This document shows, one piece after another, positions 28,842-58,755 of a stretch of 64,000 nt of DNA. A program made the position numbers and the translations under genes. The stretch comes from Myxococcus fulvus (lineage in GTDB: Bacteria > Myxococcota > Myxococcia > Myxococcales > Myxococcaceae). Position 1 is the first letter of the stretch; the number at the start of each line of letters is the position of its first letter. The DNA lies in contig NZ_FOIB01000001.1 of NCBI RefSeq assembly GCF_900111765.1, forward strand, positions 1,550,001 to 1,614,000, in the 5' to 3' direction. Below the pieces are notes generated by a model. The model saw nothing but the letters and a program-made list of their open reading frames with translations. It had not been told where the DNA came from and did no database searches.

Positions 28842-28863
28842 CGCAGGTTGGGATGTGGGCCCC

Positions 28864-28882
28864 GCGCGCTGTTCCGGCGCGC
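28864..28882 (+). terminator. Hairpin after gpsA
   Basis: A perfect 6-bp GCGCGC/GCGCGC stem with a 7-base loop lies 22 bases after gpsA and before the MFS gene. It suggests gpsA and the transporter may not be fully co-transcribed. Confidence 0.4.
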
Positions 28883-28911
28883 GCCGGGGTGCTGTTAGAA
28901 ACCGGGCTCGC

Positions 28912-30150
28912 GTGTCCCTCTCGAGCCTGGCGAGCCTGCCGTCCTTCCGTGCCTTCCGTCACCGGGAGTTCCTCGCGGTGTGGTCGGGGGCGCTCGTGTC
29001 CAACGTGGGCACGTGGATGGAGGTGCTCGCGCTGGGCGTCTTCGTCACGAAGGTCACGGGGCGCGCGGAGTGGACGGGCGGCGTGGCGGCGCTGACGTAC
29101 CTGCCCTCGCTCATCCTGTCTCCGTTGGGTGGCGCGCTGGCGGACCGGTTCGACCGGCGCAAGTACGTCGCGGTGTGCGCGGCGTCGCAGGCGCTGCTGG
29201 CGGCGGTGCTGGCGACGCTGGCCTTCACGGGGAACCTCACCGTGCAGGCGGTGGCGGGCATCTGCTTCCTCAACGGCTGCGTGCACGTGGTGTCGGGGCC
29301 GGCGTACACGGCGCTGGTGGCGGGGCTGGTGTCGAAGGAGGACCTGCACAGCGCGATGACGCTGATGTCGGCGCAGTTCAACCTGGGGCGCATCGTCGGG
29401 CCGGTGTTGGCGGCGGGGTTGCTCGCGGCGGGCAACGTGGCCTGGGTGATGGTGGCGAACACGCTGTCGTTCTTCGCGGTGTTGTTCGCGGTGGCGCAGG
29501 TGCGCGCGGAGCCCAGGGCCTCGCTGCCCGCGTCCTCCCGGGGACTGTGGGGTGACATCCTGGAGGGAGCGCGGCTGGCGCGCGGTGACTCGGGCATCCG
29601 TTTGTCGATGGTGGCGTTGTTCCTGCTCGCGCTGTTCATCTCGCCCTTCATCGCGTTGGTGCCGGTGTTCGCGCTCCAGGTGTTCGGCGCGGATGCGTCG
29701 GCCGCGTCGGTGCTCATCGCGGTGCAGGGGGTGGGAGCGCTCGTTGCGTCGGGGCTGGTGGGCGGCTTCGCGGTGCGCTGGGGCAAGGACCGGGTGGTGG
29801 ACCTGTCGATGATGTTGATGGGGCCGGTGACGATGGCGTACTGGCTGTCGCCCACGCTGCCCGTGGCGATGGGGAGCATGTTCGTCCTGGGCGCGGTGTA
29901 CCTGGTGGTGATGACGGGGCTGAGCACACGCAACCAGGAGCGCACGCCGCGCGAGCTGCAGGGGAGGGTGAGCAGCCTCGCGATGCTGCTCATCAACGTG
30001 GGCTACTCGGTGGGCGTCTGGGCGCAGGGCGCGCTCGCGGACCGGGTGGGTGTGCGCGGCGTCACCGCGACGGCGGCGGCGCTGTTCTTCCTGTCGATGG
30101 TGGGGCTGCGCTGGCAGCGCCCGAGGACCGCCGACGTCGCGAGCACCTGA
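28912..30150 (+). CDS. MFS transporter (EntS-like exporter family)
   Basis: The GTG at 28912 gives a 412-residue protein starting just before the conserved FRAFRHREFLAVWSGALVSNVGTWM segment. The longer frame from 28855 has no support. Around 10-12 hydrophobic helices are visible, with the family's ADRFDRR cytoplasmic loop after the second helix and a repeat of the fold in the second half. It belongs to the drug/siderophore exporter group of the major facilitator superfamily. It ends 5 bases from the convergent LysK-type gene, so it could export the cluster product, but it is oriented with gpsA, so this link is only inference. Confidence 0.87.
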   Translation: MSLSSLASLPSFRAFRHREFLAVWSGALVSNVGTWMEVLALGVFVTKVTGRAEWTGGVAALTYLPSLILSPLGGALADRFDRRKYVAVCAASQALLAAVLATLAFTGNLTVQAVAGICFLNGCVHVVSGPAYTALVAGLVSKEDLHSAMTLMSAQFNLGRIVGPVLAAGLLAAGNVAWVMVANTLSFFAVLFAVAQVRAEPRASLPASSRGLWGDILEGARLARGDSGIRLSMVALFLLALFISPFIALVPVFALQVFGADASAASVLIAVQGVGALVASGLVGGFAVRWGKDRVVDLSMMLMGPVTMAYWLSPTLPVAMGSMFVLGAVYLVVMTGLSTRNQERTPRELQGRVSSLAMLLINVGYSVGVWAQGALADRVGVRGVTATAAALFFLSMVGLRWQRPRTADVAST

Positions 30151-30155
30151 CGCCC

Positions 30156-31217
30156 TCAGACCTTGTTCGGCAGGAGCGCGAGCACGCGGGCCAGCACGGC
30201 GACGCCCTCTTCGTACTCGCCCAGCTCGATGTGCTCGTCGGGCGTGTGGTCCAGCGCGGAGTCACCCGGGCCGTAGGCGACGGTGGGCACGGCCCAGGTG
30301 TCCGCCACGGTGTTCCAGTCCGAGGTGCCCGTCTTCACGCGAAGGGTGGGGCGCGCGCCGCGCTCGCGGATGGACTGCTTGAAGGCGCGGGTGAGCGGGT
30401 CGTTGCCCTCGGCGGACACGGCGCCCTTGCGGGACACCGTCTTCACCGAGACGTCGGGCACGCTGGTGAGGCACGCGAGCAGGGCGTCCACGTCGCTGGT
30501 GGGGCCGGTGCGGATGTTGATGCTCGCGGTGGCCCACTCGGTGTCGTGGTCGGTGCCCGTGTGGAAGGACAGGAGCGAGGGCAGGTCCTGCTCGAAGAGG
30601 GTGCAGCCCGCGTTGCGCTCATCACAGCGGCGGCGCAGGGCGTTCCAGGCGTCGACGAGGTGCTCGGCGGGGGCGCGATAGTTGCGGCTCGCGGTGTGCT
30701 TGCGCGCGGCGCGGTACTCGAGCTCCAGCCGGACGAGGCCCTTGTAGCCCAGGGTGATGGCGTGAGCGCCGCTGGGCTCGCCGTTGACGACGAAGTCCGG
30801 GCGGTGGTGCTCGCGAGCGTGGAGCGCGCCCCGGGTGATGGCGACCTCCTCTTCCACGCAGCCGAGGAGGAGGAAGCGCTTGCCGGCGCGCTCGGAGTCG
30901 TCGAGCAGCTCCGCGGCCTCGATGAACGCGGCCAGCGCGCCCTTGGCGTCCACCGCGCCACGGCCGAACAGGCGCGTGCCTTCGAGGCGCACGGGGATGT
31001 CGCCAGGGACGGTGTCGATGTGGCCCAGCAGCGCGACGCAGGTGTCGCCGTCACCGAGGCTGGCCACGGTGTTGCCCATCTCGTCGACATGGGCGCGCCA
31101 GCCGCGACGCTCCAGCTTCTCCGCGAGCGCACGGGAGAAGTCTGCCTCCTGGTGACTGGGGCTGTACTGCTCCAGCATCCACCGCAACAGCTCCGAGCTC
31201 GCCTCACGCGCCCGCAT
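30156..31217 (-). CDS. lysK: LysK-type M20 hydrolase ([LysW]-amino acid hydrolase)
   Basis: The 353-residue M20 metallopeptidase has the metal ligands H66/D68 ([10 protein letters not shown]), D90 (GRGAVDAKG), E122/E123 (GCVEEE) and a later VNGEPSG segment. Its best family fit is LysK, which frees lysine or ornithine from the C-terminal glutamate of the amino-group carrier protein LysW. It is the last gene of the minus-strand operon and overlaps the LysZ-type gene by 14 bases. Here it is inferred to release the finished unusual amino acid rather than lysine. A generic ArgE/DapE-type deacylase is the alternative; the linked LysX/Y/Z genes favour LysK. Confidence 0.87.
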
Positions 31218-32061
31218 CAGCCACCTTCACACCCGAAGAAGTGAGCTTCGTACCGGCCTCGCCCGCCAGCGCGGACAGCACGGGGCGAGGCGCCGCCGAG
31301 GCCGTGACGTGCGCGGACCGCACGCCCCCCGCGAGCGCGCGCCGAGCCGCCTCCAGCTTGTAGCGCATGCGTCCCCGCGCGAAGCCCATGACCCGCTCGA
31401 CATCATCACTCTCACGGATGAGCGACGTGGGGTCCGCCGGGTCCTCGAGCAGCCCCGCCACGTTGGACAGCATCACCAGCGCGCGAGCCCCCAGCGCGGC
31501 GGCGATGGCGGCGGCCACCTGGTCCGCATCCACATTCACCAGCGTCCCATCCTCCGTCACCGCCGGAGGACACACGACCGGAGTCTGGCCCGCGTCCATC
31601 AACACGCCGAGCAGCCGCGTGTTCACCTCGGTCATCTCCCCGGCCAGGTGCGTGCGGTCGATGCGCGTGCGAGTCCCATCCTGGAGCTTCAAGGGTGGCC
31701 TGCGCCGGGCCACGAGCACCCGACCATCCGCGCCGCACATCCCCATCGCCGGCACTCCTCGCGACAGCAGCGCGAGCACCGCGCGCTTGTTGACGTCACC
31801 CACCCACGCCATCGTCAGCACGCGCAGCGTGGCCTCATTCGTCAGCCGCACCACGTTGCCAGAAGCCGTCAGCGCCTCCCTGCGCTCCATGCCCAACGAG
31901 GCCAGCAGCGAGTCGCCCGCCTCCGAGCCTCCATTCACCACGACGACCCGCTCGCCACGCTGACGCAGCTCCGCCACGTCGGCGCAGACGTTCTCCAGGT
32001 CCACGCCCGCGGCGCCCCCAATCTTCACCACGAGCGGCGCGGGCTGGGACACGGGGCTCAT
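31204..32061 (-). CDS. lysZ: LysZ-type amino-acid kinase ([LysW]-aminoadipate/glutamate kinase)
   Basis: The 285-residue amino-acid kinase family protein has the N-terminal phosphate-binding GGAAG motif (VVKIGGAAGVDLENVC) and VVVVNGGSE. The nucleotide-site segment VNVDADQVAAAIAAALGA and the lysine-rich C-terminal helix MRYKLEAARRAL follow. It phosphorylates the side-chain carboxylate of the carrier-bound Glu or aminoadipate, the second step of the LysW pathway. It resembles LysZ more than ArgB in its start and in its context. Its ATG overlaps the SDR stop (ATGA). Primary arginine synthesis is the alternative reading but does not explain the transketolase and sulfotransferase neighbours. Confidence 0.88.
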   Translation of the reverse strand: MSPVSQPAPLVVKIGGAAGVDLENVCADVAELRQRGERVVVVNGGSEAGDSLLASLGMERREALTASGNVVRLTNEATLRVLTMAWVGDVNKRAVLALLSRGVPAMGMCGADGRVLVARRRPPLKLQDGTRTRIDRTHLAGEMTEVNTRLLGVLMDAGQTPVVCPPAVTEDGTLVNVDADQVAAAIAAALGARALVMLSNVAGLLEDPADPTSLIRESDDVERVMGFARGRMRYKLEAARRALAGGVRSAHVTASAAPRPVLSALAGEAGTKLTSSGVKVADAGA

Positions 32062-32840
32062 CCGATGACGCTCGCGCCACCGTCGATGAGCTGCACGGTG
32101 CCCGTGATGAACGACGCGCGCTCACTGGCGAGGAACGCGGCCGCCGCGGCGAACTCCTCCGGCTCACCCACCCGGCGCAGCGGGATGTGCGCGGCCATGG
32201 CTCGAAGCCCCGCCTCGACATCGCCCGACGTGTTGGTCCCCGCCGTGCGCTCCACGGGCGGCGTGCGCGTATAGCCCGGCGCGAGCACGTTGACGGTGAC
32301 GCCGCAGTCCCCCAGTTCCTGCACCAGCGCGGATGCGAATCCCACGATGCCCAGGCGCGCCGTGCCAGACAGGGCGAAGCGCGCCACCGGCCGCACCACC
32401 GTCTCCGAAGTGATGAGCAAGAGCCGTCCCCACTTCGCGGCCTTCATGTACGGCAGCGAGGCCAGGGCCAGGTTGATGGCCGGCAGCATCACCGTGTCGA
32501 CGGCCTCCTGGTACGCGGTGATGTCGAACTTCGTCGCCGGCCCCGGCGGCGGCCCCGCGCTGTTCGTCACCACGATGTGGGGACCGCCCAGCTTGCTGGC
32601 CACGTCCTCCACCCACGCCTTCGCGGCGCTGTGCTCCTTCAAGTCCACACGCGTGGCCAGCACCTTGCCACCGCGAGACATCAAGCGCAGGTGCGCCTCG
32701 GCGCGAGCCAGCCGCTCGGCGTCGCGCGCGCCGATGGCGACATGCGCGCCTTCCTTCACCAGCTCCTCGGCCACGGCCAGCCCCAGTCCACTGGAGCCAC
32801 CAGCGATGAGCGCGACCTTATGGGTGAGTCCCAGTTCCAA
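32058..32840 (-). CDS. SDR-family protein of the subgroup lacking YxxxK
   Basis: The start is set at the TTG whose first base is 32840, behind GGAGG. It gives 260 residues beginning M-ELGLTHKVALIAGGSSGLG, which matches the usual MDLGLKGKVALV start of this subgroup. The glycine-rich cofactor loop is GGSSGLGL and the NNAG-equivalent is NSAGPPPGP. Where classical SDRs have YxxxK, this protein has FALSGTARLGIVG, as in the non-canonical 'LSNxxRAG' SDR subgroup. The true catalytic residues therefore differ. It lies between the sulfotransferase and the kinase, so a role in tailoring the carrier-made amino acid is inferred. The frame is open upstream to 32975 because the gene start was duplicated. 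Confidence 0.85.
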   Translation of the reverse strand: MELGLTHKVALIAGGSSGLGLAVAEELVKEGAHVAIGARDAERLARAEAHLRLMSRGGKVLATRVDLKEHSAAKAWVEDVASKLGGPHIVVTNSAGPPPGPATKFDITAYQEAVDTVMLPAINLALASLPYMKAAKWGRLLLITSETVVRPVARFALSGTARLGIVGFASALVQELGDCGVTVNVLAPGYTRTPPVERTAGTNTSGDVEAGLRAMAAHIPLRRVGEPEEFAAAAAFLASERASFITGTVQLIDGGASVIG

Positions 32841-33004
32841 GGTTCTTCCTCCGAGTGTCCGGCATGTTCCTGACGGGGCCTGCACCAGCGCGGGGGGCCT
32901 CGCAAGCCCCGGTCCCCAGGCTCCACCGGCGATGCGCGCGGCCTTATGGATGAGTCCCGGTCCCCAGGTTCCCACTCCGAGCGTCCGACACGTTCTTCGC
33001 GGGC
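32781..33004 (-). repeat. Diverged 126-bp-period tandem duplication of the sulfotransferase/SDR junction
   Basis: Two ~98-bp copies (about 32781-32878 and 32907-33004) align with an offset of exactly 126 bases and about 80% identity by eye. Each contains the sulfotransferase C-terminal codons ending GTGTHP-stop and, in another frame, the SDR start region ending HK.A.IAGG. The upstream copy ends the real sulfotransferase and the downstream copy begins the real SDR gene. Confidence 0.8.
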
Positions 33005-33942
33005 TCCGCTCCGGAGCCGACGTCCACGGGGGCCGGTGGTCCCCGGTACTGGTAGCGCCCCGTCAGCGGCCACGCGAGCGTGGACACCAGCGTCTTCACC
33101 TTCGCCGGAAGCTCCTTGCGCCACGCATCGTCACCGGGCCGCAGCAGCGTCGAGCCACTCAGGAACCGGTCCGGGTTGCCGGTGACGGTGTGGTTGCGGC
33201 CCAGCACCACCGTGCGCCCCTTCACCGGATTCACCGCGCGGTCCACCTGGATGAGCTCCAGCAGGGAGTCGATGGTGGCCTGCGGCGACGCGATGAAGTC
33301 CTCGTAGCGCAGGAACAGCGAGCGCTCCGGGTGACGCCGGGTGACCAGCTCCGAGGCCACGTTGAAGCCCAGCCAGTACGCGGTGCTCCGCGCGGCGGAC
33401 ATCGGGACGACGTACTGCTTCGTCTTCGTCCACGAGTGCGCCACCGCGCGAGGGTCCCTCACCAGGTGCAGGTAGTACGGAGTGATTCCATCCACGTGCG
33501 GAAGCAGCGCCGCCTCGGAGGGGAACTTCCCGCTGTCCACGATGATGTGGCTGCCCGTGGCGTCCGCGATGGTGCGGTACGTCCGGGCAAGCAGCTCCGC
33601 GTGCTCGTACAGCACCGGAGAGGGCGTACCCTGCCGCAGTACGCGCCACGTGTGCCGCGTGCGCACCGTGTCCAGCTGTCGGCGCACCACCCGCGCGGCA
33701 TGTCCCTGCGGAGACTCCCCTGTCGCCACGCCCTGCTCCAGCACCTTGGCCCACAGGGCGCATTGCACCAGCGGCGTGCCACAGCCGCACATCGTGTTGG
33801 AGCCGTTCCCGTAGGCGTTCTTCCACAGGAAGCTCAGCTCGCCGGTGTGGAAGCAGCCCGCCACCTCGTTGAGCACGTTGCCGATGATGGTGCTGCCGCT
33901 GCGGCACCAGCCGGTGATGTAGAGGACGGTCAGCGTGCTCAT
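32944..33942 (-). CDS. PAPS-dependent sulfotransferase
   Basis: The 332-residue enzyme has the 5'-phosphosulfate loop WCRSGSTIIGN (R14-T18) and the 3'-phosphate motif LVRDPRAVAHSW (R162, S170). These are the two PAPS-binding signatures of sulfotransferases. A Cys cluster (CGCG around 52-55) and a C-terminal Pro-rich tail are extra features. Azinomycin biosynthesis uses a PAPS sulfotransferase (AziU2) to activate a hydroxyl for aziridine closure, and the LysX/Y/Z plus transketolase context is the same here. Sulfation of the mature peptide is the other possibility. No clear ribosome-binding site precedes the ATG, and a 45-base gap separates it from the LysY-type gene. Confidence 0.88.
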   Translation of the reverse strand: MSTLTVLYITGWCRSGSTIIGNVLNEVAGCFHTGELSFLWKNAYGNGSNTMCGCGTPLVQCALWAKVLEQGVATGESPQGHAARVVRRQLDTVRTRHTWRVLRQGTPSPVLYEHAELLARTYRTIADATGSHIIVDSGKFPSEAALLPHVDGITPYYLHLVRDPRAVAHSWTKTKQYVVPMSAARSTAYWLGFNVASELVTRRHPERSLFLRYEDFIASPQATIDSLLELIQVDRAVNPVKGRTVVLGRNHTVTGNPDRFLSGSTLLRPGDDAWRKELPAKVKTLVSTLAWPLTGRYQYRGPPAPVDVGSGAEPAKNVSDARSGNLGTGTHP

Positions 33943-33987
33943 GGGCGGACACCGAGGGGGAGGTGGCGCATGGGGGAGTCTTTCACG

Positions 33988-35031
33988 TCAGAGGGGGTGG
34001 AGGCCGCGGAAGCCGAGGCCCTCCGTTTCGGGTCTGCCCAGCATCAGGTTCAGCGCATGCACGGCCGTGCCCGCCGCGCCCTTCACCAGGTTGTCCAGCG
34101 CCGCGTTCACCACGATGCGCCCGCGCTCCGCGTCCACGTCCACCGACAGGTCACAGTGGTTGGTGCCCGAGAGCGGGCCCGGCTCTGGGAACGGTGACGC
34201 GCTCGCGTTGGCGCGCAGCACGTTCACGAAGGGGTGCTCGCGGTACGTCGACGCGAGCGCGCGCAGGGGCTCGTTGGCGTCCTCGAGCGGACGCGCGGCG
34301 AAGGCGTGCACGGTGGCGAGGATGCCTCGGACGCTGGGCACCGCCGTCGCGCTGAAGTGCACGGTGGCGCGCGTGCCGGTGAAGCGCTCCGTCGCGGCCT
34401 CGATCTCCCCCGTGTGCCGATGTCCCGTGGGCCGATAGCAGCGCAAGGCCGAGGCCCGCTCGGGATGATGCGACGAGCGGTCCGGGGTCGCGCCGCCACC
34501 GGACGAGCCCGTCTTCGCGTCCACCACCACCATCTCGGGACGCACCAGCCCCGCGCGCACCAGGGGCAACAGCCCGAGCAGCGCCGCGTGGGCCATGCAC
34601 CCGGGCACCGCCACCCACCGCGCGTCCTTCAATCGAGCGCCCGCCCACTCCGGCAGGCCGTAGACGAACTCGGGCAGCTCCGCGGGCCGGGGCGCGCGGG
34701 GATACCAGCGCGCGTGGTCGACGGGACCGAGCCGGAAGTCCGCGCTCAGGTCGATGATGCGCGCGGCGAGCGGGCTCACCTGCGACCACCGGCGGATGAG
34801 CTCTCCGGAGGGCATGCAGGAGACGAGCACGTCGCACGGCTCCAGCGCGTCGTGGGGCGCGAAGCGCAGCGTGCTCGCGCCGCGCAGGTGCGGGTGGGGG
34901 AAGTCGAGCCGCTTGCCGGCGTGCTGCTCGGACGTGGCCTGGGCCACCTCCACCGCCGGGTGCGCGAGGAGCAACCGCAGCACCTCGCCGCCAGCGTAAC
35001 CCCCGGCCCCCAGCACCGCGACACGCGTCAT
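33988..35031 (-). CDS. lysY: LysY/ArgC-type reductase ([LysW]-acyl-phosphate reductase)
   Basis: The 347-residue enzyme reduces the carrier-bound acyl phosphate to the semialdehyde with NADPH. The N-terminal dinucleotide loop GAGGYAGGEVLRLL (residues 8-21) and the catalytic cysteine C145 (VAVPGCMAHAALLGLLPL) are visible, and the length fits ArgC/LysY. Its ATG overlaps the LysX-type stop (ATGA). The resulting semialdehyde would be the acceptor for the C2 unit delivered by the adjacent transketolase. ArgC of arginine synthesis is the alternative, judged less likely because it sits in an operon with LysX and the split transketolase. Confidence 0.88.
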   Translation of the reverse strand: MTRVAVLGAGGYAGGEVLRLLLAHPAVEVAQATSEQHAGKRLDFPHPHLRGASTLRFAPHDALEPCDVLVSCMPSGELIRRWSQVSPLAARIIDLSADFRLGPVDHARWYPRAPRPAELPEFVYGLPEWAGARLKDARWVAVPGCMAHAALLGLLPLVRAGLVRPEMVVVDAKTGSSGGGATPDRSSHHPERASALRCYRPTGHRHTGEIEAATERFTGTRATVHFSATAVPSVRGILATVHAFAARPLEDANEPLRALASTYREHPFVNVLRANASASPFPEPGPLSGTNHCDLSVDVDAERGRIVVNAALDNLVKGAAGTAVHALNLMLGRPETEGLGFRGLHPL

Positions 35032-35876
35032 CGCAACGTCTCCCGCACGTAGTCCGCCATCAGCTCCGGCAGGGGAATGCCGGTGAACTCGATGCTCCGC
35101 GCGAACTCCACGCAGTGGTTGATCTCATTCACCATCACCTCGCCTGCCCGCGTCTCCAGCAGGTCCACCGCCACCATCTCCCCGCCCACGGCGCGCGCGG
35201 CCTGCTCTGCGAGCCGGGCGTGGGACTCCGGCACCTCGTAGCGCTCCGGCACCGCGCCCCGGGCGGTGTTCGTCACCCAGTGCTCGGAGCGTCGGCGCAT
35301 GCCGCCCACCGACTTGCCGATGACGTACACGCGCAAGTCGTATCCCGGCTTGTCGATGTACTGCTGCACCAGCGCCACGTGGTCCTGCGCGCCGCCCATC
35401 TCGAAGCGCATGGACATCATGCCCTCCGCCGCGTGGACGCCATCCACGCGCGCCACCATCCGCCCCCACGAGCCGAGCACGGGCTTGGTCACCACGGGGA
35501 AGCCGCGCTCCTGCATCTGCGCGACGCAGGCCTCCTCCTCGAAGCCCACGAAGGCCCAGGGGATGGGCACCTCCGCCCTGGCGAGCGCGAGCGTGGTGAG
35601 CGCCTTGTCCCCGCACGTGGCGATGCAGTGCGCGGTGTTGAGCACGCGGGAGCCCTTCACCTCCAGGATGGAGGACAGGTAGCGCGCCCGCGTGAAGGAC
35701 ATGCTGCGCATCAGCACGGGCCCGCCGTCCTGCCAGCGCTCACGGCTCAGCGGGAGCACCAGCTCCGAGTCCGCGTGTGTCCTCACCCCGAAGCCCCGCG
35801 CGCGCAGCGCGTCCGCGAGCATGCGCTCCTCGGTGCGCAGGCGGGTGTAGACCAGGTGGACCTCGTGGCCTTGCAT
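35028..35876 (-). CDS. lysX: LysX-type ATP-grasp ligase (RimK family)
   Basis: The ATG with first base 35876 has AGGAGG at good spacing; an adjacent ATG at 35879 overlaps the previous stop and is an alternative. The 282-residue RimK-family protein has ATP-grasp features: VVTKPVLGSWGRMVA, the Arg-rich GGMRRRSEHW loop and the metal-binding VNEINHCVEF end. LysX joins the alpha-amino group of aminoadipate or glutamate to the C-terminal Glu of the small carrier LysW. Whether it prefers Glu or aminoadipate cannot be told. It is the committed step of the operon; its carrier substrate is not encoded in this window. Confidence 0.9.
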   Translation of the reverse strand: MQGHEVHLVYTRLRTEERMLADALRARGFGVRTHADSELVLPLSRERWQDGGPVLMRSMSFTRARYLSSILEVKGSRVLNTAHCIATCGDKALTTLALARAEVPIPWAFVGFEEEACVAQMQERGFPVVTKPVLGSWGRMVARVDGVHAAEGMMSMRFEMGGAQDHVALVQQYIDKPGYDLRVYVIGKSVGGMRRRSEHWVTNTARGAVPERYEVPESHARLAEQAARAVGGEMVAVDLLETRAGEVMVNEINHCVEFARSIEFTGIPLPELMADYVRETLR

Positions 35877-36910
35877 CATCCCCTCCTGGCGGGTGCCAGC
35901 GCCGCCAGCCGGGGGCGGGGCAGGGCGCCGAGAATCGTCTCCACCAGCGCGCCCGCCTCCAGGCCGTGGCGCTGCAGCAGCGACTCGTGCGTGCCGGCCG
36001 TGGAGTCGTAGCGGTCCTGGATGCCCGCCCGCACCACGCGCCGGCCCAGGCCGTGACTCGCCACGCTCTCGCACACCGCGCCGCCCAGGCCGCCGAGGAT
36101 GGAGTGCTCCTCCACCGTGACGAGCAGCCGGGTGCGCTCGGCCGTCTCCAGGAGCGCCTCCTCGTCGAAGGGCTTGAGCGTGTGCAGGTTCACCACGCGC
36201 GCGGAGACGCCCTGGGTCTCCAGCCGCGACGCCACGTCCAGCGCCACGCTCACGCCCACTTCTCCGTGCGCGATGATGCCCACGTCGCCGCCCTCGCGCA
36301 GGCACATGGCGCGCCCCAGGGCGAAGGCGGGCCGGGCCACGTCCAGCCGCGTGACGCGGTTGCGGCCGAGCCGCAGGTACACCGGGCCCTCCAGCTCCAG
36401 CACCGCCCGCGTCGCCTGGATCGTCTCCAGCCCGTCCGCCGGCGACACCACCGTCATGCCCGGCATGGCGCGCAGGATGGCCAGGTCCTCGATGGCGTGG
36501 TGCGTGGGGCCGAAGAATGCGCCGGACAGGCCGCCGTAGTCGCACACCAGCTTCACGTTGGCGCGCGCATAGGCCAGCCCCAGCCGCACCTGCTCGCACG
36601 CGCGCATCGCCCCGAAGGGGGCGAAGGTGTGGGCGAAGACGACGTGGCCGGTGGCCGCCATGCCGCTGGCGATGTCCAGCATCGCCGCCTCGCAGATGCC
36701 CAGGTTGAGGAAACGCTCCGGGTGGCGCGCGGCGTACGGGTCTCCACCTCCCGCCAGGTCCGCCTCGAGCAGCACCACGCGCTCATCCTGGTCCGCGAGC
36801 CTGGCCAGCGCGTGCCGGAACACCAGCCGGTTGGACAGGCCCGGCTGCTCCGCGAGCCAGTCCGAGGGCGCCGTCAGCAGGTCCGCGCCGCTGGAGGTGG
36901 AGCTCGTCAC
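35876..36910 (-). CDS. Transketolase C-terminal subunit (split type)
   Basis: The GTG with first base 36910 overlaps the stop of the N-terminal subunit (GTGA), giving 344 residues. It has the pyrimidine-binding and C-terminal transketolase domains. The catalytic glutamate segment is LGICEAAMLDIASGMA and the THHAIEDLAILRAMPGM motif is characteristic of the split and DXS-like types. With the preceding gene it forms one TPP enzyme. Split transketolases occur next to LysX/Y/Z genes in vazabitide/azinomycin-type clusters, where they add a two-carbon ketol unit to the carrier-bound glutamate semialdehyde. That role is inferred here. Confidence 0.92.
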   Translation of the reverse strand: MTSSTSSGADLLTAPSDWLAEQPGLSNRLVFRHALARLADQDERVVLLEADLAGGGDPYAARHPERFLNLGICEAAMLDIASGMAATGHVVFAHTFAPFGAMRACEQVRLGLAYARANVKLVCDYGGLSGAFFGPTHHAIEDLAILRAMPGMTVVSPADGLETIQATRAVLELEGPVYLRLGRNRVTRLDVARPAFALGRAMCLREGGDVGIIAHGEVGVSVALDVASRLETQGVSARVVNLHTLKPFDEEALLETAERTRLLVTVEEHSILGGLGGAVCESVASHGLGRRVVRAGIQDRYDSTAGTHESLLQRHGLEAGALVETILGALPRPRLAALAPARRG

Positions 36911-37725
36911 GGCGTCACCTCACCCAGCGACGCGAGCGCCCGCTTGAGCTGCTCCGGGTTGAACGTCGCGTAGTGCGGCCCCTTGCCGCGCAGCATCGGC
37001 ACCCCCGCGCCCTTCTTCGTGTTCGCCACAATCGCGCGAGGCCCCTCGGCGGGCGCCTCCAGCGCGGAGGCCAGCGCCTCCAGGTCGTGCCCGTCCACCT
37101 CCACGGTGCCCAGGCCGAACGCGGAGAGCCGCTGCACCAGCGCGGCCTGGGAGAGGATGCTCTCCGTGGGCCCGTCGTTCTGTCCGCCGTTGCGGTCCAC
37201 CAGCACCGTGAGCCCGCTCAGCTTGTGCTGCGCCGCGATTTGCAGCGCCTCCCAGTTGGAGCCCTCGCCCATCTCACCGTCTCCACAGATGACGAACACG
37301 CGGTTGGCGCGCTGCCGCAGCCGATGTCCCAGCGCCATTCCCACGCCCAGTCCCACGCCGTGTCCCAGGCTCCCCGTGGGGAACTCGACACCCGGCACCG
37401 CCGCGCTCACGTGTCCGGTATAGGGACTACCCTCCGCGTTGTAGCGTTGCACCAGTTCTTCAGCATCGATGAAGCCGAACTCGGCCAGGGCGGCGTAGAG
37501 CCCGGCGGCGGCGTGGCCCTTGGAGAGGATGAGCGAGTCGCGCTCCTCCCAGCGGGGCTCCTGGGGCCGCACGTTCATCACCCGTCCGAGCAGCACCACG
37601 AGCAGCTCCACCATGGAGAGCGAGCCCCCCAGGTGACAGCCCACGGGCGTGGCGGCGAGCCGGAGGATGGTCCGGCGGATGCGACGAGCGCGCTCCTCGA
37701 GGGGTACCTGGACCATGGGTGTCAT
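36907..37725 (-). CDS. Transketolase N-terminal subunit (split type)
   Basis: The start is placed at the ATG whose first base is 37725 (272 residues). The in-frame ATGs at 37785 and 37848 fall upstream of or within the predicted promoter. The TPP/Mg motif GDGEMGEGSNWEALQIA with N179 (residues 148-179) is intact, as are the SKGHAAAGLYAAL and GSLGHGVGLGVG segments. It pairs with the next gene and is the first gene of the eight-gene operon. The divergent AMP ligase gene starts 213 bases away. Primary pentose-phosphate transketolase is normally a single ~670-residue chain, so a split, cluster-located copy points to secondary metabolism. Confidence 0.92.
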   Translation of the reverse strand: MTPMVQVPLEERARRIRRTILRLAATPVGCHLGGSLSMVELLVVLLGRVMNVRPQEPRWEERDSLILSKGHAAAGLYAALAEFGFIDAEELVQRYNAEGSPYTGHVSAAVPGVEFPTGSLGHGVGLGVGMALGHRLRQRANRVFVICGDGEMGEGSNWEALQIAAQHKLSGLTVLVDRNGGQNDGPTESILSQAALVQRLSAFGLGTVEVDGHDLEALASALEAPAEGPRAIVANTKKGAGVPMLRGKGPHYATFNPEQLKRALASLGEVTP

Positions 37726-37818: not shown

Positions 37819-37864
37819 TGTGAGTGAGGGTCCTGGGGGTGCAGACATGTGAGCTTTCGCAGTC

Positions 37865-37894
37865 TTGCTGGTTTTGCACGCGAATCGGTATGGT
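37865..37894 (+). promoter_or_regulatory. Candidate promoter of the AMP ligase/NRPS operon
   Basis: TTGCTG (37865-37870) and TATGGT (37889-37894) are separated by 18 bases, about 45 bases before the start at 37939. The match is moderate. The -10 element lies inside the inverted repeat described next. Confidence 0.35.
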
Positions 37895-37899
37895 TCGCG
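37879..37899. promoter_or_regulatory. Inverted repeat, candidate operator in the divergent promoter region
   Basis: CGCGAATC-GGTAT-GGTTCGCG is an 8-bp inverted repeat with one mismatch and a 5-base centre. It overlaps the candidate -10 of the plus-strand operon and lies 61 bases upstream of the minus-strand -35. A repressor bound here could control both halves of the cluster. Confidence 0.4.
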
Positions 37900-37938
37900 C
37901 GGTCCGGAAAGTCACGCGGTCCATGGAGGATGTGGACG

Positions 37939-39621
37939 ATGGACGCACGGTTCGGAAGCGGCCCCACGCCAGAGCAGGCGGCGCTGTACCGGAGCAGGGG
38001 CTGGTGGCGTGACGAGACGGTGCTGGACGACCTGCGTCGAGCCATCCAGAAGCACCCGGACAAGCCGGCCATCGTGGCGGCCCGCTACTTCGCCAAGGAC
38101 GTCACGCGCATCAGCTACGCCCAGCTGGGACGGTACGCGGAGCGCTTCGCGGGCGCGCTCGTGTCGCTGGGCGTGGCCCGGGGCGAGCTGGTGGCGGTGC
38201 AGCTTCCCAACTGGTGGCAGTTCACCGCGCTGGCGCTGGCGTGCGCGCGAATCGGCGCCGTCATCGCCCCGATTCCTCCCGACTACCGGCGCCGCGAGGT
38301 GGAGTTCATCCTCGGCAGGACGGAATCCTCCGTCTACATCGGACCGCTGAGCTGGAGCGGCCACTCGCACCGGGACATGCTGCGCGAGGCCGCGTCGTCG
38401 CTGCCGGCTTTGAAGCACCGCGTCTTCATCGGCGCGGAGGGCGCCACCCAGGCGGGCGAGCTGGACTTCGAGGCGTACTTCGTCGAGCGGCGCTGGGAGG
38501 AGGAAGTCGACCCGGCGACGTTGGACGCCAGGTCCGCGCGCGCCGACGACATCTGCAACGTCCTCTACACCTCCGGCACCACGGGCGAGCCCAAGGGCGT
38601 GGTCCACTCGCACAACACCAACTTCGGCATCACCCGCGCCATCGCGGACGTCATGGCCCTGGGCGAGGACGATGTGGTGTGCCTGCCGTCGCTGCTCACC
38701 GCCTCCAGCGGATTTACTTACCTGTACTTGATGGCGGTGAACCTGGGGGCGACGGCTGTCTACATGGACGTGGGCGACCCGGAGCTGACGCTGCGCTGCA
38801 TCCAGGAGCACGGCGTCACGTTCATGTATGGGATTCCCACGTATGTGATGAACGTCATCGCGGCGAAGAAGAAGCGCGGCGGTGAAACATCCTCGTTGCG
38901 ACGGCTGTCCACCGGCTCCATCCCCGTGCCGCCGCACCTCATCGCCGCGGTCCGCGAGAGTTTTGGCGTGCCACTGCACACGCTGTGGGGGATGACGGAG
39001 AACGGCGCGGTGACGATTACGCGGCGCGACGACCCGCCGGACTGGCCGTCCCACAGCGACGGGCGCCCGGTGGAGTGGATGGAGGTGAAGATTGTCCCCG
39101 CGCTGGCGGAGGACGGCTCGCCCTATCCGGAGGGTACGGGACGGCTGCTCGTCCGGGGCGCGAGCCAGTGCCTGGGCTACTTCAAGCGGGAGGACATCTA
39201 CCGCGCGAGCGTGGACGCGGAGGGTTGGTTCGACACGGGGGACCTCGCGCGGGACGACGGGCGCGGGGGCATCCGCATCGTCGGGCGGCTCAAGGACGTC
39301 ATCTTCCGCTACGGCCAGAAGGTGCCGGTGGTGGAGGTGGAGTCGGCGCTGTACTCGCATCCGAAGGTGAAGGAGGTGGCCGTCATCGGTCACTCCGACG
39401 ACCGCATCGGCGGCGAGCGGGTGTGCGCGGTGGTCGTGGCGCGCGACGAGGCGCCGACGCTGGACGAGCTGCGCGCGCACTTGAAGGGCCTGGGCATGTC
39501 CAACCAGTACTGGCCGGACCGGCTGGAGGTGGTGGAGGAGATGCCCAAGACGCCGTCGGGAAAGATTCGCAAGTACCTGCTGCGCGAGCGGCTCAAGGGC
39601 CCCACCGCCAAGGTGGGCTGA
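37939..39621 (+). CDS. Stand-alone AMP-dependent acid ligase (EntE/acyl-adenylate type)
   Basis: ATG 37939 lies 9 bases after GGAGG (an in-frame ATG 37930 is too close to it), giving 560 residues. The AMP-binding core YTSGTTGEPKG is near residues 210-220, and WGMTENG, DTGDLA, GRLKDVIFRYGQ and the final PSGKIRK lysine follow. The N-terminal PEQAALYRSRGWWRDET segment is typical of ligases that load aryl or acyl acids onto a free carrier protein. The next gene encodes such a carrier and the first NRPS starts with a condensation domain. It therefore probably activates the starter acid, though it could also load the adenylation-less modules. Confidence 0.9.
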   Translation: MDARFGSGPTPEQAALYRSRGWWRDETVLDDLRRAIQKHPDKPAIVAARYFAKDVTRISYAQLGRYAERFAGALVSLGVARGELVAVQLPNWWQFTALALACARIGAVIAPIPPDYRRREVEFILGRTESSVYIGPLSWSGHSHRDMLREAASSLPALKHRVFIGAEGATQAGELDFEAYFVERRWEEEVDPATLDARSARADDICNVLYTSGTTGEPKGVVHSHNTNFGITRAIADVMALGEDDVVCLPSLLTASSGFTYLYLMAVNLGATAVYMDVGDPELTLRCIQEHGVTFMYGIPTYVMNVIAAKKKRGGETSSLRRLSTGSIPVPPHLIAAVRESFGVPLHTLWGMTENGAVTITRRDDPPDWPSHSDGRPVEWMEVKIVPALAEDGSPYPEGTGRLLVRGASQCLGYFKREDIYRASVDAEGWFDTGDLARDDGRGGIRIVGRLKDVIFRYGQKVPVVEVESALYSHPKVKEVAVIGHSDDRIGGERVCAVVVARDEAPTLDELRAHLKGLGMSNQYWPDRLEVVEEMPKTPSGKIRKYLLRERLKGPTAKVG

Positions 39622-39656: not shown

Positions 39657-39923
39657 GTGAGCACTGACACGAGCACCACGCCGCTTCAGGACAAGCTCGC
39701 CGCGTACTGGCGCGAGCTGCTGGGGGCGGAGGTGGTGAGGCAGCAGGACCACTTCCTGGAGGTGGGCGGCAACTCGCTGATGGCGACGATGCTCGCCAAC
39801 CGCATCGAGGAGGAGCTGGGCGTCCAGCTCTCCATGGTGGACCTGTTCGACACGCTGGAGCACGTCACCGCGGTCTGCGAGGAGCAGCTGCGCGAGCAGG
39901 GCCGCACCTTCCCCGCGGCTTGA
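39657..39923 (+). CDS. Free-standing phosphopantetheine carrier protein (PCP/ACP)
   Basis: The GTG start at 39657 has GAGGAG 6 bases upstream, and the product has 88 residues. It is a single carrier domain with the phosphopantetheine-serine motif DHFLEVGGNSLMAT and helix II/III sequences of PCP type. It likely receives the acid activated by the upstream ligase and hands it to the first condensation domain of the NRPS. It is not the LysW-like carrier: it lacks zinc-binding cysteines and the acidic C-terminal end ending in Glu that LysW proteins have. Confidence 0.9.
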   Translation: MSTDTSTTPLQDKLAAYWRELLGAEVVRQQDHFLEVGGNSLMATMLANRIEEELGVQLSMVDLFDTLEHVTAVCEEQLREQGRTFPAA

Positions 39924-40041: not shown

Positions 40042-43000
40042 ATGTCCGCGAATGAGTCGAAGCCCGCGAGCCCTCGTGCTCGCAGGCCGCCCCCTGTGGT
40101 GCCGGTCCGCCGCGAGGGCGCCCCTCCGCTCTCCTTCGCCCAGCGCCGGATGTGGTTCCTCTCGCGGCTGGACCCCTCGGGCTTCGCCTACAACGCGCCG
40201 TTCTTCTCGCGGTTGAAGGGCCGGTTGGACGTGGCCGCGCTGGAGCGGGCCCTCACGGAGGTGGTGCGCCGGCACGAGGCGCTGCGGACCACCTTCGTCG
40301 AGGTCGCGGGCGAGCCGGTGCAGCGCATCTCACCCGAGGCGACGGTGACGCTGCACGTGGAGCGGGTGGAGGGTGAGGCCGAGGCGCGTCGGCACGCGGA
40401 GGAGGAGGCGAGGCGCCCGTTCGATTTGAGCGCCGGGCCAATGCTGCGAGCCCGGCTCCTGCGACTGCGCGAAGAAGACCACGTGCTGCTGCTGACGCTG
40501 CACCACATCGCGTGCGACGGGTGGTCGCTGTCGCTGCTGGAGCGCGAGCTGCGCGAGCTGTACGGCGCGCTCGTCGAGGGCCGCGAGCCCGCGCTGCCGG
40601 CGCTGACGGTGCAGTACGCGGACCATGCGGCGTGGCAGCGGGAGTGGTTGACGGGCGAGGTGCTGGAGACGCAGCTCGCGTGGTGGCGGGATCACCTGGC
40701 GGGAGCGTCGCCCGCGTTGGAGTTGCCCACGGACAGGCCGAGGCCCGCGGTGCAGTCGGCGCGGGGCGCGGTGCTGGGCGTGCCGCTGCCCGCGGAGCTG
40801 ATGCGGGCGCTGCACGAGCGGTGCAAGCAGGAGTCGGTGACGCCGTTCATGTGGCTGCTCGCGAGCCTGCAGGCGTTGCTGTCGCGGCACAGCGGCCAGC
40901 CGGACGTGGTGGTGGGCACGCCCATCGCGGGGCGCACGCGGCGCGAGGTGGAGGGGCTCATCGGTTTCTTCGCCAACACGCTCGCGCTGCGCACGGACGT
41001 GGACGGGAGCGAGTCCTTCAAGTCGCTGCTCGCGCGGGTGCGTCGCTCGTGCCTGGGGGCGTATCAGCACCAGGACGTGCCCTTCGAGCGACTGGTGGAC
41101 GCGCTGCGGCCGGTGCGTGACCTGAGCCGCTCGCCGCTGTTCCAGGTGCTGCTCGTCCTGCAGAGCGCGCCGCCGCTGGTGCGCCTGCCGGGGCTGGAGT
41201 CGCGCGACGCGGACTTCGAGCCCGGGGTGGCCAAGTTCGACCTCACGCTCTTCGTGCGCGAGACGCCGGACGGCTGGATGGGACTGTGGGAGTACAGCAC
41301 CGCGCTCTTCGACGAGGCGACGGTGCGCAGGCTCGCGGGGCACTTCGTCCGCTTCCTGCAGGGCGTGGTGGGCAACCCGGAGGCTCGGGTGGGGACGGTG
41401 CCGCTCCTGGATGACGAGGAGCGACAGGCGGTGGTGCGGGAGTGGCACTGGATGCTGGAGTCCAGGTCTCCGTCCTGGTTGCTGCATCGGCGCGTGGAAG
41501 CACAGGTGGCGCGAACGCCGCATGCGGTGGCGGTCACGGATGGACGCGAGTCGTTGACGTACGCGCGATTCGAGGCGCGGGCCAATCAGCTCGCGCATTA
41601 CCTGCGGACGGTGGGTGTTCTCCCGGGTGACGTGGTGGGCCTGTGCCTGGAGCGGGACAGCCTGGACCTGCCCGTGGCGGTGCTGGCGACGCTGAAGGCG
41701 GGCGCGGCGTGCATGCCCCTGGATGCGAGCTACCCGCGGGAGCGTCTGGCGCGGATGCTCGAGGACGTGGGCGCGCCGGTGGTGCTGGTGCACTCGTCGC
41801 TGGAGGCAGTGCTTCCTCCGGAGAGTGCATCGCGTCGGGTGCGCTTGGACGAGGAGGCCGAGCGAATCGCCGAGGCGTCCACGCTGGCGCCCGCGTGGGT
41901 GCTGTCTCCCGCCACGCCCTGCTACGTCCTCTTCACGTCCGGGAGCACTGGACGGCCCAAGGGCGTGACGATGTCCCACGGCGCGCTGGACACGCTGGTG
42001 CGCTGGCAGCTCGAGAGCACGGCGGCGCCGCGCGCGCGCACGTTGCAGTTCAGCGCGTTGAGCTTCGACGTGTCGTTCCAGGAGATGCTGTGCACGTGGT
42101 GCGAGGGCGGGACGCTGGTGCTCGTCTCGGCCACGACACGGCAGGACCCGGCCCTGTTGCTCGCGCACATGCGGGAGCACGGCGTGGAGCGGCTCTTCCT
42201 GCCGTACGTCGCGCTCCAGTCGCTGGCCGAGCGGGCCCGGCACGAGGCCGCGCTCCCTCCGCTGAAGCAGGTGGTGACGGCGGGTGAGCCGCTGCAGGTG
42301 ACGCCCGCGGTGGTGTCGTTCTTCGAGCGGCTGACCGGGTGCGTGCTGGAGAACCAGTACGGGCCGACGGAGTCGCACGTGGTGACGGCCTGGAGGGCGG
42401 AGGGCCCGCCGTCGACGTGGCCCGCGCTGCCTCCGGTGGGCAAGCCCATCACGCTCGCGACGGTGTTCGTGCTGGATGCGTTCGGCGCACCGTGTCCCAT
42501 CGGCGTCACGGGAGAGCTGTACCTGAGTGAGCGGAGCCTCGCGCACGGTTACTGGGGACGTCCGGAGCTGACGGCGGAGCGCTTTGTCCCCGATGGCCTG
42601 CATCGCGGTCGAGACGGGATGCGGCTGTACCGCACGGGTGACCGGGGGCGATGGCTCGCGGATGGGAACCTGGAGCTGCAGGGGCGCTCGGACGAGCAGG
42701 TGAAGGTGCGTGGCTTCCGCGTGGAGCCCGGCGAGGTCGAGGTCGCCCTGAAGGAAGTGGAGGGCGTGGAGGACGCGGCGGTGGTGGCGCGTGTCTCCGA
42801 GCGGGGTGGGAAGCAACTGGTGGGCTACGTCGTCGCGACGGGCCCCTGGGATGCCGAGGCGCTGAAGCGTCGCCTCGCGAAGCGGCTGCCCGAGTACATG
42901 GTGCCCGCGGTGCTGGTGCCGCTGGAGGCCCTGCCGCTGACGCCGAGCGGGAAGGTGAACCGCCGGGCATTGCCACAACTGGAGTCCACGCGAGAGGAGC

Positions 43001-46000
43001 CGGGCACACGCTACGAGGCGCCGCGTACTTCGATGGAGCAGACGCTCGCGAACGTGTGGCGTGAGGTGCTGGGCGTGCCGCGCGTCGGCGTGCGAGATGA
43101 CTTCTTCGCGCTGGGTGGACACTCGCTGCTGGCGACGCGCGTGGTGTCGCGCCTTCGGGACGAGCTGGGCCACGACGTCCCCGTGCGACTGTTGTTCGAG
43201 GCGCCCACGGTGGAGGTCCTGGCCGAGCGGCTGGGCGCGGCGGGCGCGAGTACGCGGCGCCCTTCGCTGACGCGCATGGACCGACCGGTGGACCCGCCAC
43301 TGTCGTTCGCGCAGCGGCGACTGTGGTTCCTCGCGCAGCTGGACGCGGGAGGACACTCGTACAACCTCCCCTTCGTCGTCCGACTCCACGGCGCGGTGGA
43401 CGCGCGTGCCTTGGAGCAGGCCCTGACACAGGTGGTGCGCAGACACGAGGCGCTGCGCACGAGCTTCGTGGAGGTGGGCGGAGAGCCCGTGCAGCGCATC
43501 GCCCCCGATGCGGCGATCTCCCTGGGCGTGGCGGCCGTCGAGGACTCCGTCGACGTGGAAGCGGCGGTGCGTGACCAGGTGGTGAAGGAGGTCCAGGCGC
43601 CCTTCGACGTGACGCGAGGCCCGCTGCTCCGGGCCACCCTGTTGAGGACGGGCCGGGACGAGCAGGTGCTGGTGGTGGTGCTGCACCACCTGGTGGCGGA
43701 TGGCTGGTCGCTCGGTGTGCTCACTCGGGAGCTGGAGTCGCTGTACGTCGCGGCGGAGCTGCCCGAGCTGCCGGTGCAGTACGCGGACTATTCGCTGTGG
43801 CAGCAGAACTGGTTGAAGGGCGAGGTGGAGTCCGCGCAGCTCGCGTGGTGGGGCGAGGCGCTGAAGGGCGCGCCGCCGGTGCTGGAGCTGCCCACGGACA
43901 GGCCGAGGCCGCCGGTGCAGGGCTATCGGGGCGCGAGCGTGCCGGTGCGCCTGTCCACCGAGCTGAGCGAGTCCCTGCGACAACTGGGACGGCGTGAAGG
44001 CGCGACGCTGTACATGACGCTGCTCGCGGGCTTCCAGGTGTTGCTGGCGCGCTACAGCGGACAGTGGGACGTGGTGGTGGGTTCACCGGTGTCGGGCCGC
44101 ACGGCGAAGGAGACGGAGGGGCTCATGGGCTTCTTCGTCAACACGCTGGCCTTGAGGGCGAGGCCGGATGCGGCGCGCTCCTTCGAGGTGTTCCTGCGTC
44201 AGACGAAGGAGTCGGTGCTCGGGGCGCTCGCGCACCAGGACGTGCCCTTCGAGCGATTGGTGGAGCACCTGCGTCCGGAGCGGGACCTGAGCCGCTCGCC
44301 GCTGTTCCATGTGCTCTTCACGTTGCAGGACGCCGCGCCGCTGCTGTCGTTGCCCGGTGTCACCGCGGGCCCCTGGGACTTCGCGAGCACCATCGCCAAG
44401 TTCGACCTGGAGCTGCTGCTCGTGGACGCCCCTGGCGCGAGCGTCGAGGGACAGCTCATCTACAACGCGGACCTCTTCGAGCCGTCCACGGTGCAGCGCC
44501 TCGCCGCGTGTTTCCTGGAGCTGTTGTCGAACCTGTCCGCTCGGCCCCAGGCCCGACTGTCGACGCTGTCCCTGTTGCCTGCCGAGGACCGCGCGCGGCT
44601 GTTGGTGGAGTGGAACCAGACGGCGGTGGAGTTCCCGCGCGAGGCGTGTGTCCACCACCTCTTCGAGGAGCAGGTGGCACTGCGCCCCGACGCGGTGGCG
44701 CTGGAGTTCGGCGACGAGCGGCTCACCTACCGTGAGCTGGAGGCGCGAGCCAATCAGCTCGCCTGGGCACTGCGGGCGCGCGGTGTCGGCGTGGATGTGC
44801 TGGTGGCGGTGTGTCTGGACCGCTCGGTGGAGCTCGTCGTGTCGCTCCTGGCCATCCTCAAGGCCGGTGGCGCGTACGTGCCGCTCGACTCCAGCTATCC
44901 GGCGAAGCGACTGGAGCAGATGTTGGAGGACTCGGCGCCGCGGTTGCTCATCACCACCCGCGTCCTCCTGGAGCAACTGCCTCGCGAGGGACGTCCCGAG
45001 TTGATGTTGCTGGAGGAGGCGCGGCTCGACGGACATCCGACGACGGCGCCACGCATGCCGGTGTCGGGGCGCAACCTGGCGTACGTGGACTTCACGTCCG
45101 GGAGCACGGGCCGTCCGAAGGGCGTGGCGGTGGAGCACCGGGGCGTGCTGCGGCTCTTGTACGGCGCGCCCTACGCGAAGCTGGGACCCGAGGAGACGTT
45201 CCTGCTCATCGCGCCCATCTCCTTCGATGCGTCGACGTTGGAGGTGTGGGGCCCGCTGTGTCTCGGTGGACGGTTGGTGGTCTTCCCGCCGCGCTCGCCC
45301 AGTGATTTGGACCTCTTGACCGAGGTGCTCCGTCGGCACTCGGTGACGTTGCTGCACCTGACGTCGGGCTTGTTCAGCCAGATGGTGGAGCTGGGGTTGG
45401 AGGGGCTGAAGACGGTGCGTCAGCTCCTGACGGGCGGCGACGTGGTGTCCGCGCCGCACGTGAGGCGCTCGCTGGAGGAGCTGCGCATCCCGGTGACGGC
45501 GTGTTACGGGCCCACGGAGAGCACGCTCTTCACCTCGACGCATCGGATGACGCGGGTGGAGGACGTGGGGACGTCGGTGCCCATCGGCCGGCCCATCGGA
45601 AACACGCAGGTCTACATCCTGGACGAAGGGATGGAGCCGGTGCCCGTGGGCGTGGCGGGAGAGCTGTTCATCGGCGGCGACGGACTGGCCCGTGGCTATC
45701 TGCGCCAGCCCGACGTGACGGCGGACCGCTTCATCCCGAATCCCTTCAGCGCGGCGCCGGGAGAGCGCCTCTATCGCACGGGTGACCTGGCGCGGTGGCG
45801 CCCGGACGGGGTGCTGGAGTTCCTGGGGCGGCGCGACAGCCAGGTGAAGGTGCGGGGCTATCGCATCGAGCTGGCCGAGGTGGAGGCGGCGTTGCTCGCG
45901 CATCCCTCGGTGAAGGAGGGGCTCGTAGTGGTGCGGGACGGAGCCGGGGGCAAGCGGCTGGTCGCGTACTACGTCGAGCAGCAAGGGCCCGAGACTCCGA

Positions 46001-58367: not shown

Positions 58368-58755
58368 CCCCGAAATAGAGCATGACTCGCTGCGCCAGTT
58401 GAGCCCGGACCACGATATTTCCAGTTGAATCCTGAGTGGGTGTGCCCTCGCTTGCCATCTCGCCCTGGAGCGGCGCACCCGGCCCGACAAAAGGGCTCCA
58501 GCCTCTCGAATCGCCCAGATGCAAGACACGCGTTGTGGCCGTGCTCGTCCAATCTCGCATGCGGGGCAAGAGGTGGTGCGGGCCATTCAATGAGCTGTCT
58601 TTTATTTGAGAGAGTTTTTGCTGGGTTGAAAGTGATGTGTTTGGTGATTGCTTGGGGGCCTCGGTGGAATGGGGCCCGGTTGTTGTGTGATTATCATGAG
58701 GGTTGTGGATGATGTCTGCCATCCGCTGCCCCTGCTCTGTCCATGGAGGCTGGTC
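58368..58755. other. Divergent intergenic region between PKS and A-T-R genes
   Basis: This 388-base stretch has no credible gene. Its middle part (~58590-58700) is clearly AT-richer than the surroundings, as expected for a promoter region. TTGAAA at 58626-58631 is a possible -35 element, but no convincing -10 partner was found. A 7-bp inverted repeat CTGGAGC/GCTCCAG spans 58465-58501. It presumably holds divergent promoters for both genes. Confidence 0.5.

Follow-up and report, generated by a model that had tools for sequence, protein, structure and literature searches.

A transketolase–LysX–sulfotransferase operon of Myxococcus fulvus whose predicted carrier protein and Family 3 encapsulin are encoded at another locus

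The window analysed here is a 64,000-nucleotide stretch of Myxococcus fulvus DNA (G000:C1:1550001-1614000), part of a 10.8-Mb draft genome in 42 contigs, and contains an operon predicted to build an amino acid on the small carrier protein LysW. Profile searches of the operon proteins against Pfam and NCBIfam, with model cut-offs applied, bore out the eight genes named in an initial annotation of the window: they occupy the minus strand from 30156 to 37725, and every one of them matches a Pfam model above cut-off. The split transketolase consists of an N-terminal half (36907-37725; Transketolase_N, E 2e-30) and a C-terminal half (35876-36910; Transket_pyr 5e-35, Transketolase_C 8e-26). There follow the ATP-grasp ligase LysX (35028-35879; Pfam RimK and LysX_preATP_grasp), a LysY/ArgC-like phosphate reductase (33988-35031; Semialdhyde_dh, and TIGR01850 at 320.8 bits, cut-off 233.6), a PAPS-type (3'-phosphoadenosine-5'-phosphosulfate) sulfotransferase (32944-33942; Sulfotransfer_3, 6e-10), a short-chain dehydrogenase/reductase (SDR; 32058-32840; adh_short_C2, 6e-38), LysZ, a kinase for carrier-bound glutamate or aminoadipate (31204-32061; AA_kinase, and the [LysW]-aminoadipate kinase model NF010659 at 234.5 bits, cut-off 223), and LysK, predicted to free the product from LysW (30156-31217; Peptidase_M20, with TIGR01902 above cut-off). 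LysX scores 243.3 bits with LysX_arch, below the cut-off of 275.6, and 211 bits with rimK_fam, above that of 143.4; LysK reaches 358.5 bits with the [LysW]-lysine hydrolase model NF003367, slightly below the cut-off of 363. The first open reading frame (ORF) is open to 37848, and the start at 37725 agrees with where most relatives begin, homologue matches starting at residues 39-65 in eight of nine relatives and at residue 8 in one. Within the reach of their contigs, the other 31 LysX genomes keep all eight genes in this order, so the operon is not a chance arrangement. Its junctions had been described as mostly overlapping, which holds for five of the seven (by 4-14 nt) but not for LysY/sulfotransferase, separated by a 45-nt gap (33943-33987, minus strand), while the sulfotransferase/SDR junction hinges on which SDR start codon is right, the TTG at 32840 being a guess.

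The same annotation called this a carrier-protein operon, but neither the operon nor the scanned flanking ORFs yielded a LysW, and the only match to PF21344 (LysW) in the genome lies on another contig (C5, gene 520187-520381). The protein encoded there ends in EDWGE and scores 58.8 bits with TIGR01206 (cut-off 53.2). Its gene lies 16 nt upstream of an encapsulin gene whose product reaches 373.9 bits with NF041188, the Family 3 encapsulin model (cut-off 180), and the pair is flanked on one side by a gene for a methyltransferase. Its other flank holds a nonribosomal peptide synthetase (NRPS) gene, here NRPS2, together with an ornithine cyclodeaminase-like gene. In relatives, lysW occupies the junction between the C-terminal transketolase half and LysX, and the Family 3 encapsulin gene occupies the LysY/sulfotransferase gap.

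The distribution of these genes was compared over 145 genomes of the order and 195 of the phylum, LysW being counted at E below 1e-10 and ten weaker LysW-like matches (E above 1e-4) excluded. LysX is found in 32 genomes of the order, and LysW in exactly those 32; over the whole phylum the LysX count remains 32, and 163 genomes are without it. Family 3 encapsulin (encap_f3) occurs in 31 of the 195, all within the 32, and in none of the 163 others. The sole LysX genome without it, G121, has a contig that ends inside LysY, and in G062 the encapsulin gene is divided over two contigs. The distance from lysW to a lysX directly downstream is 9-47 nt in 24 of the 32 genomes; 23 of these have the encapsulin gene after lysY, with the sulfotransferase gene in view beyond it in 22. 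The other eight (G000, G097, G099, G101, G102, G105, G110 and G112, all from the genus of the window) have a split arrangement: lysW and the encapsulin gene are both absent from the operon and lie elsewhere side by side, 15-19 nt apart. On single contigs of about 10.3 Mb, operon and pair are 4.73 Mb apart in G101, 4.71 Mb in G110 and 5.57 Mb in G112 (4.75 Mb by the shorter route if the contig of G112 forms a circle); the remaining five have operon and pair on separate contigs. Because the split is common to eight related species, operon and distant pair probably work together across this distance. Moreover, the usual operon does not have these two genes next to each other, so their joint absence from it and their retention as neighbours at another site point to a partnership between carrier and shell.

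In all eight split genomes the pair lies between NRPS2 and the methyltransferase gene. In four related genomes (G095, G104, G108 and G109, together group B) neither lysW nor encapsulin separates NRPS2 from the methyltransferase gene, and the gap measures less than 0.1 kb in two of the four and about 1.3 kb in the other two. In G113, which is without LysX, the distant site is empty. A tailoring role for the methyltransferase was set aside, for in G113 it adjoins an enolase gene without NRPS2, LysW or encapsulin. Phylogenies of LysX and encapsulin disagree. In the LysX tree the eight split genomes group with B (support 100/98), and the alternative of grouping them with the Archangium-type operons (G044, G046, G047, G098 and G111) is rejected by the approximately unbiased (AU) test (p-AU 0.005). 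In the encapsulin tree the same eight genomes group with the Archangium-type operons (100/98), and grouping with B is rejected (p-AU 0.006); in both tests the groups were named after the trees had been seen. The LysW trees reject neither grouping (p-AU 0.15 and 0.24). For encapsulin, the incongruence with LysX rejects a plain move of the pair native to the operon, and the lysW-encapsulin pair seems to have been exchanged instead. Purifying selection acts on both loci. Over the aligned stretches, none of the eight operon genes, LysW or encapsulin has a stop codon in the eight split genomes. Ratios of nonsynonymous to synonymous substitution rates (dN/dS), estimated by NG86 in four pairwise comparisons drawn from five split species, are 0.16-0.28 for LysW, 0.12-0.16 for encapsulin and 0.21-0.27 for LysX, and lie well below 1 in the seven operon genes measured of the eight.

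The initial annotation had proposed a LysW-dependent, transketolase-extended amino acid made beside an NRPS in a myxobacterium, and the gene content supports this much. Primary arginine or lysine synthesis, which it had named as the finding that would count against it, is not what the operon serves, since the genome has a separate ArgC (C6:184204) and ArgB (C6:190066), both above model cut-offs, so that the ArgB- and ArgC-like genes of the operon are not its only ones, and since LysX is missing from 163 of the 195 phylum genomes. The product envisaged there, a diamino-dihydroxyheptanoate, fared less well. Aminotransferase genes were not matched among the operon and the subset of ORFs scanned in window positions 19-64 kb or in locus L007, and neither an aminotransferase nor LysW is in the operon; a diamino product of the vazabitide/azinomycin type is therefore not supported. 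Without an aminotransferase, the hydroxy-keto amino acid would be expected to cyclise through its α-amine.

We consider it fairly probable that the operon instead encodes a chloromyxamide-type pathway to 5-hydroxy-6-hydroxymethyl-pipecolate, with a sulfate leaving group and with LysW and encapsulin serving in trans. LysX would attach glutamate to LysW, and LysZ and LysY would convert the glutamate side chain to an aldehyde on the carrier. Extension by two carbons through the split transketolase, a known chemistry, would give carrier-bound 2-amino-5,7-dihydroxy-6-oxoheptanoate. After release by LysK, the α-amine would close on C6 to a piperideine, which the SDR may reduce to 5-hydroxy-6-hydroxymethyl-pipecolate. 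The sulfotransferase would place a sulfate on C7, a potential leaving group for chloride or for aziridine formation, and an aziridine intermediate may occur. In this genome and the seven other split genomes, LysW and the Family 3 encapsulin shell, whose genes are seen at the other locus, would act in trans. The pipecolate unit would be taken up by the adjacent NRPS1 (40042-54651, plus strand; six condensation, three adenylation (A) and six peptidyl carrier protein (PCP) domains), the first A domain of which has the code DVQFVAQVV. A DVxxQ code, which we take to be proline-type, is found in the first or second NRPS1 A domain of 23 of the 26 clusters with a readable A domain (32 examined). The chloromyxamides are reportedly, from the title of Gorges 2018, peptides of 6-chloromethyl-5-methoxypipecolate; this residue shares its carbon skeleton with 5-hydroxy-6-hydroxymethyl-pipecolate, and the skeleton fits the transketolase product expected of the operon. 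The carrier chemistry is proposed by analogy with LysW-dependent lysine synthesis and with azinomycin (reviewed in PMC9570651).

Several observations weigh against this proposal. The model name of LysZ points to aminoadipate, and the glutamate preference of LysX is an assumption; the SDR is without the usual Tyr and Lys; and neither a halogenase nor an O-methyltransferase was seen among the scanned ORFs of the NRPS1 cluster, a Methyltransf_25 gene lying at 20879-21577. The distant encapsulin groups with the Archangium-type proteins and not with the operon's nearest relatives. The genomes counted for co-occurrence have common ancestors, which makes the counts non-independent, the genome of the window is a draft in 42 contigs, and the link of this strain and its NRPS1 product to the chloromyxamides is a prediction from gene content.

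A further proposal, which we offer as possible but tentative, is that LysW and the Family 3 encapsulin form one unit, in which the carrier presents its cargo to or inside a shell that would protect a reactive intermediate on the carrier (an aldehyde, a sulfate ester or an aziridine). The eight split species would have exchanged this unit for one from another lineage, which would work in trans, about half a genome away in three of them, and the chloromethyl group of the chloromyxamides would come from chloride opening of the sulfate ester or of a fused aziridine, without a halogenase. The eight split genomes amount to a natural experiment, the partnership being testable through two small genes. 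They also show that cluster-based genome mining can overlook a carrier encoded megabases away, and the gene set offers a concrete route to the chloromethyl-pipecolate unit.

Three other explanations were weighed against the chloromyxamide-type pathway. A vazabitide/azinomycin-type pathway, in which the operon would make diamino-dihydroxyheptanoate and the sulfotransferase would act as AziU2 in aziridine formation, would also account for the transketolase halves, LysX, LysY, LysZ, LysK and the sulfotransferase, all of which are present. For azinomycin, a review describes extension by a transketolase together with an aminotransferase and an intermediate that carries a sulfate (PMC9570651), and such a pathway could draw on a general aminotransferase from elsewhere in the genome. 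Yet no aminotransferase was matched in the operon and scanned flanking ORFs, whereas three transketolase-LysW loci of actinobacteria have DegT-family matches in the interval from LysX to LysY (a strong one in L170, partial ones in L154 and in L187), and the sulfotransferase of the Streptomyces S465 locus L186 belongs to a different Pfam family, PF19798, with nothing found at E 0.01 in a search of the PDB. We regard this pathway as unlikely for the operon.

The remaining two explanations turn on NRPS2. The distant pair might serve the adjoining synthetase, with the window operon left as a decaying relic without a carrier, and the position of the pair between NRPS2 and the methyltransferase gene in the eight split genomes is in keeping with this. 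Decay, however, is hard to reconcile with operon genes that are free of stops over their aligned stretches in all eight genomes and have dN/dS well below 1 in the seven measured. The explanation also has against it the four group B genomes that have NRPS2 without an adjoining LysW or encapsulin, the other LysX-like matches of G000, which are partial and at most 29% identical, and G110, where NRPS2 is shortened (1331 aa against 3450 aa in G000) and has no cyclodeaminase-like (OCD) gene adjoining although both lysW and encapsulin genes, like the operon, are undamaged. (The G110 NRPS2, L093:10320-14315, is a single protein with condensation, A and terminal thioesterase (TE) domains, in which the pattern used found no PCP motif.) We give this explanation as little credence as the diamino pathway. 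Slightly less improbable, though still doubtful, is that one building-block pathway supplies both NRPS1 and NRPS2 through a shared carrier, making the two clusters metabolically coupled. Two of the three NRPS2 A domains are of the DVxxQ type and lysW adjoins NRPS2, but the ornithine cyclodeaminase-like gene beside NRPS2 can account for proline-type domains, and in the two Corallococcus operon genomes examined the methyltransferase locus is without NRPS2.

Among described systems, the chloromyxamide-type Family 3 encapsulin biosynthetic gene cluster (BGC), as presented by Andreas and Giessen 2021 (PMC8346489), is a better match than vazabitide or azinomycin. According to that paper, a Family 3 encapsulin, its role described as unknown, is part of the chloromyxamide BGC, some such BGCs encode LysW-like carriers, and the shells may sequester reactive intermediates. 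Shared members are an NRPS, a sulfotransferase, an SDR, a LysW-type amino-group carrier protein (AmCP) and an encap_f3 shell; the difference is that eight genomes of the window's genus encode carrier and shell at another locus. In PMC8538283, scaffold 18 of Citreicoccus inhibens M34 is listed under chloromyxamide with 13%, and contig 18 of that strain, the same scaffold if the numberings agree, carries the operon. The kind of cluster is known from PMC8346489, and the split carrier arrangement appears to be new: no report of a carrier split from the operon was found in the literature searched, which is weak evidence of novelty as subscription papers were mostly outside its coverage. With the vazabitide, azinomycin and ficellomycin systems of Streptomyces, compared by description (PMC9570651 for azinomycin), the proposed pathway shares LysX/Y/Z/K-type steps and the split transketolase; it differs in having no aminotransferase found and in the added SDR and encapsulin. 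LysW-dependent lysine and arginine synthesis of Thermus and archaea shares the LysW, LysX, LysY, LysZ and LysK chemistry, whereas the operon adds transketolase, sulfotransferase and SDR, and its LysX occurs in just 32 of 195 phylum genomes.

Outside the phylum, Actinomadura rupiterrae (locus L162) shares ten genes: sulfotransferase (52% identical to that of the window), SDR, encapsulin, both transketolase halves, LysW, LysX, LysY, LysZ and LysK. Its encapsulin is recognised by similarity (41%) and Phage_capsid, not by NF041188. All genes lie in one place, no NRPS was recognised in the 20 kb seen, and no aminotransferase is among five further ORFs scanned. At L162:1847-5280 this type of operon adjoins a lantibiotic dehydratase N-domain protein and a ketoacyl synthase III (KAS III), which suggests that Actinomadura rupiterrae may use the building block in the absence of an NRPS. 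In a tree with other phyla the myxobacterial LysX stands on its own long branch; neither a grouping with the transketolase-linked rows (p-AU 0.22) nor one with Actinomadura alone (p 0.07) is rejected. The tree is thus compatible with descent of the myxobacterial enzymes from actinobacterial transketolase-linked ones but does not establish it, and the phylogenetic check named in the initial annotation gives no verdict for LysX.

Around the window operon, the neighbour on the left is a major facilitator superfamily (MFS) exporter (28855-30150, plus strand; MFS_3, 7e-50), seen at 20 of 32 operon loci, several of the others ending at contig edges. On the right are a stand-alone AMP-binding enzyme (37849-39621, plus strand; AMP-binding, 3e-76), which adjoins the operon in all 32 genomes and in which the marker Asp of amino-acid adenylation is absent by eye, and a stand-alone peptidyl carrier protein (39657-39923, plus strand; PP-binding, 1e-13). 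The motif order of NRPS1, with six condensation and six PCP domains to three A domains, suggests consecutive condensation-PCP modules without an A domain. Beyond NRPS1 lies a ketosynthase-acyltransferase-acyl carrier protein-TE protein on the minus strand, and 58648-61776 encodes an A-PCP-reductase protein (AMP-binding, PP-binding, NAD_binding_4), possibly an aldehyde-releasing unit. A glycerol-3-phosphate dehydrogenase is a further plus-strand neighbour of the operon. The Methyltransf_25 gene is about 9 kb to the left, with regulators and other genes in between.

Two details of the SDR and sulfotransferase were followed up. In all 29 aligned rows the SDR carries Ser and Arg where classical SDRs carry Tyr and Lys (motif aligned by eye). 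A special active-site change was rejected, as the nearest solved relatives, 2z1n and 5va8, carry the same letters; the substitution is thus a subfamily trait that says little about the reaction. The nearest PDB sequences to the sulfotransferase are 4gox (named Polyketide synthase) and the CurM sulfotransferase 4gbm. Its conserved GTGTxQ tail was considered as an encapsulin targeting peptide and dismissed: it is encoded in a stretch that overlaps the SDR gene start of relatives, so its conservation has a different cause. The SDR frame across that stretch reads LELGL by eye, and L090 is without the tail. In the window an additional stretch between the two genes (32840-32975), where some relatives overlap, resembles a local duplication by eye, and Corallococcus has tandem repeats at the same junction (L099:13750-13995). 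Among more distant loci, Streptomyces sp. S465 has two with transketolase and LysX (L186 and L187), and in L186 a Sulfotransfer_5 gene is present while LysW stands at the opposite end of its operon. Paenibacillus algorifonticola (L184, Bacillota) combines LysW, LysX, LysY, LysZ, LysK and transketolase, and 2 kb separate its LysX from LysY, as in the Streptomyces loci.

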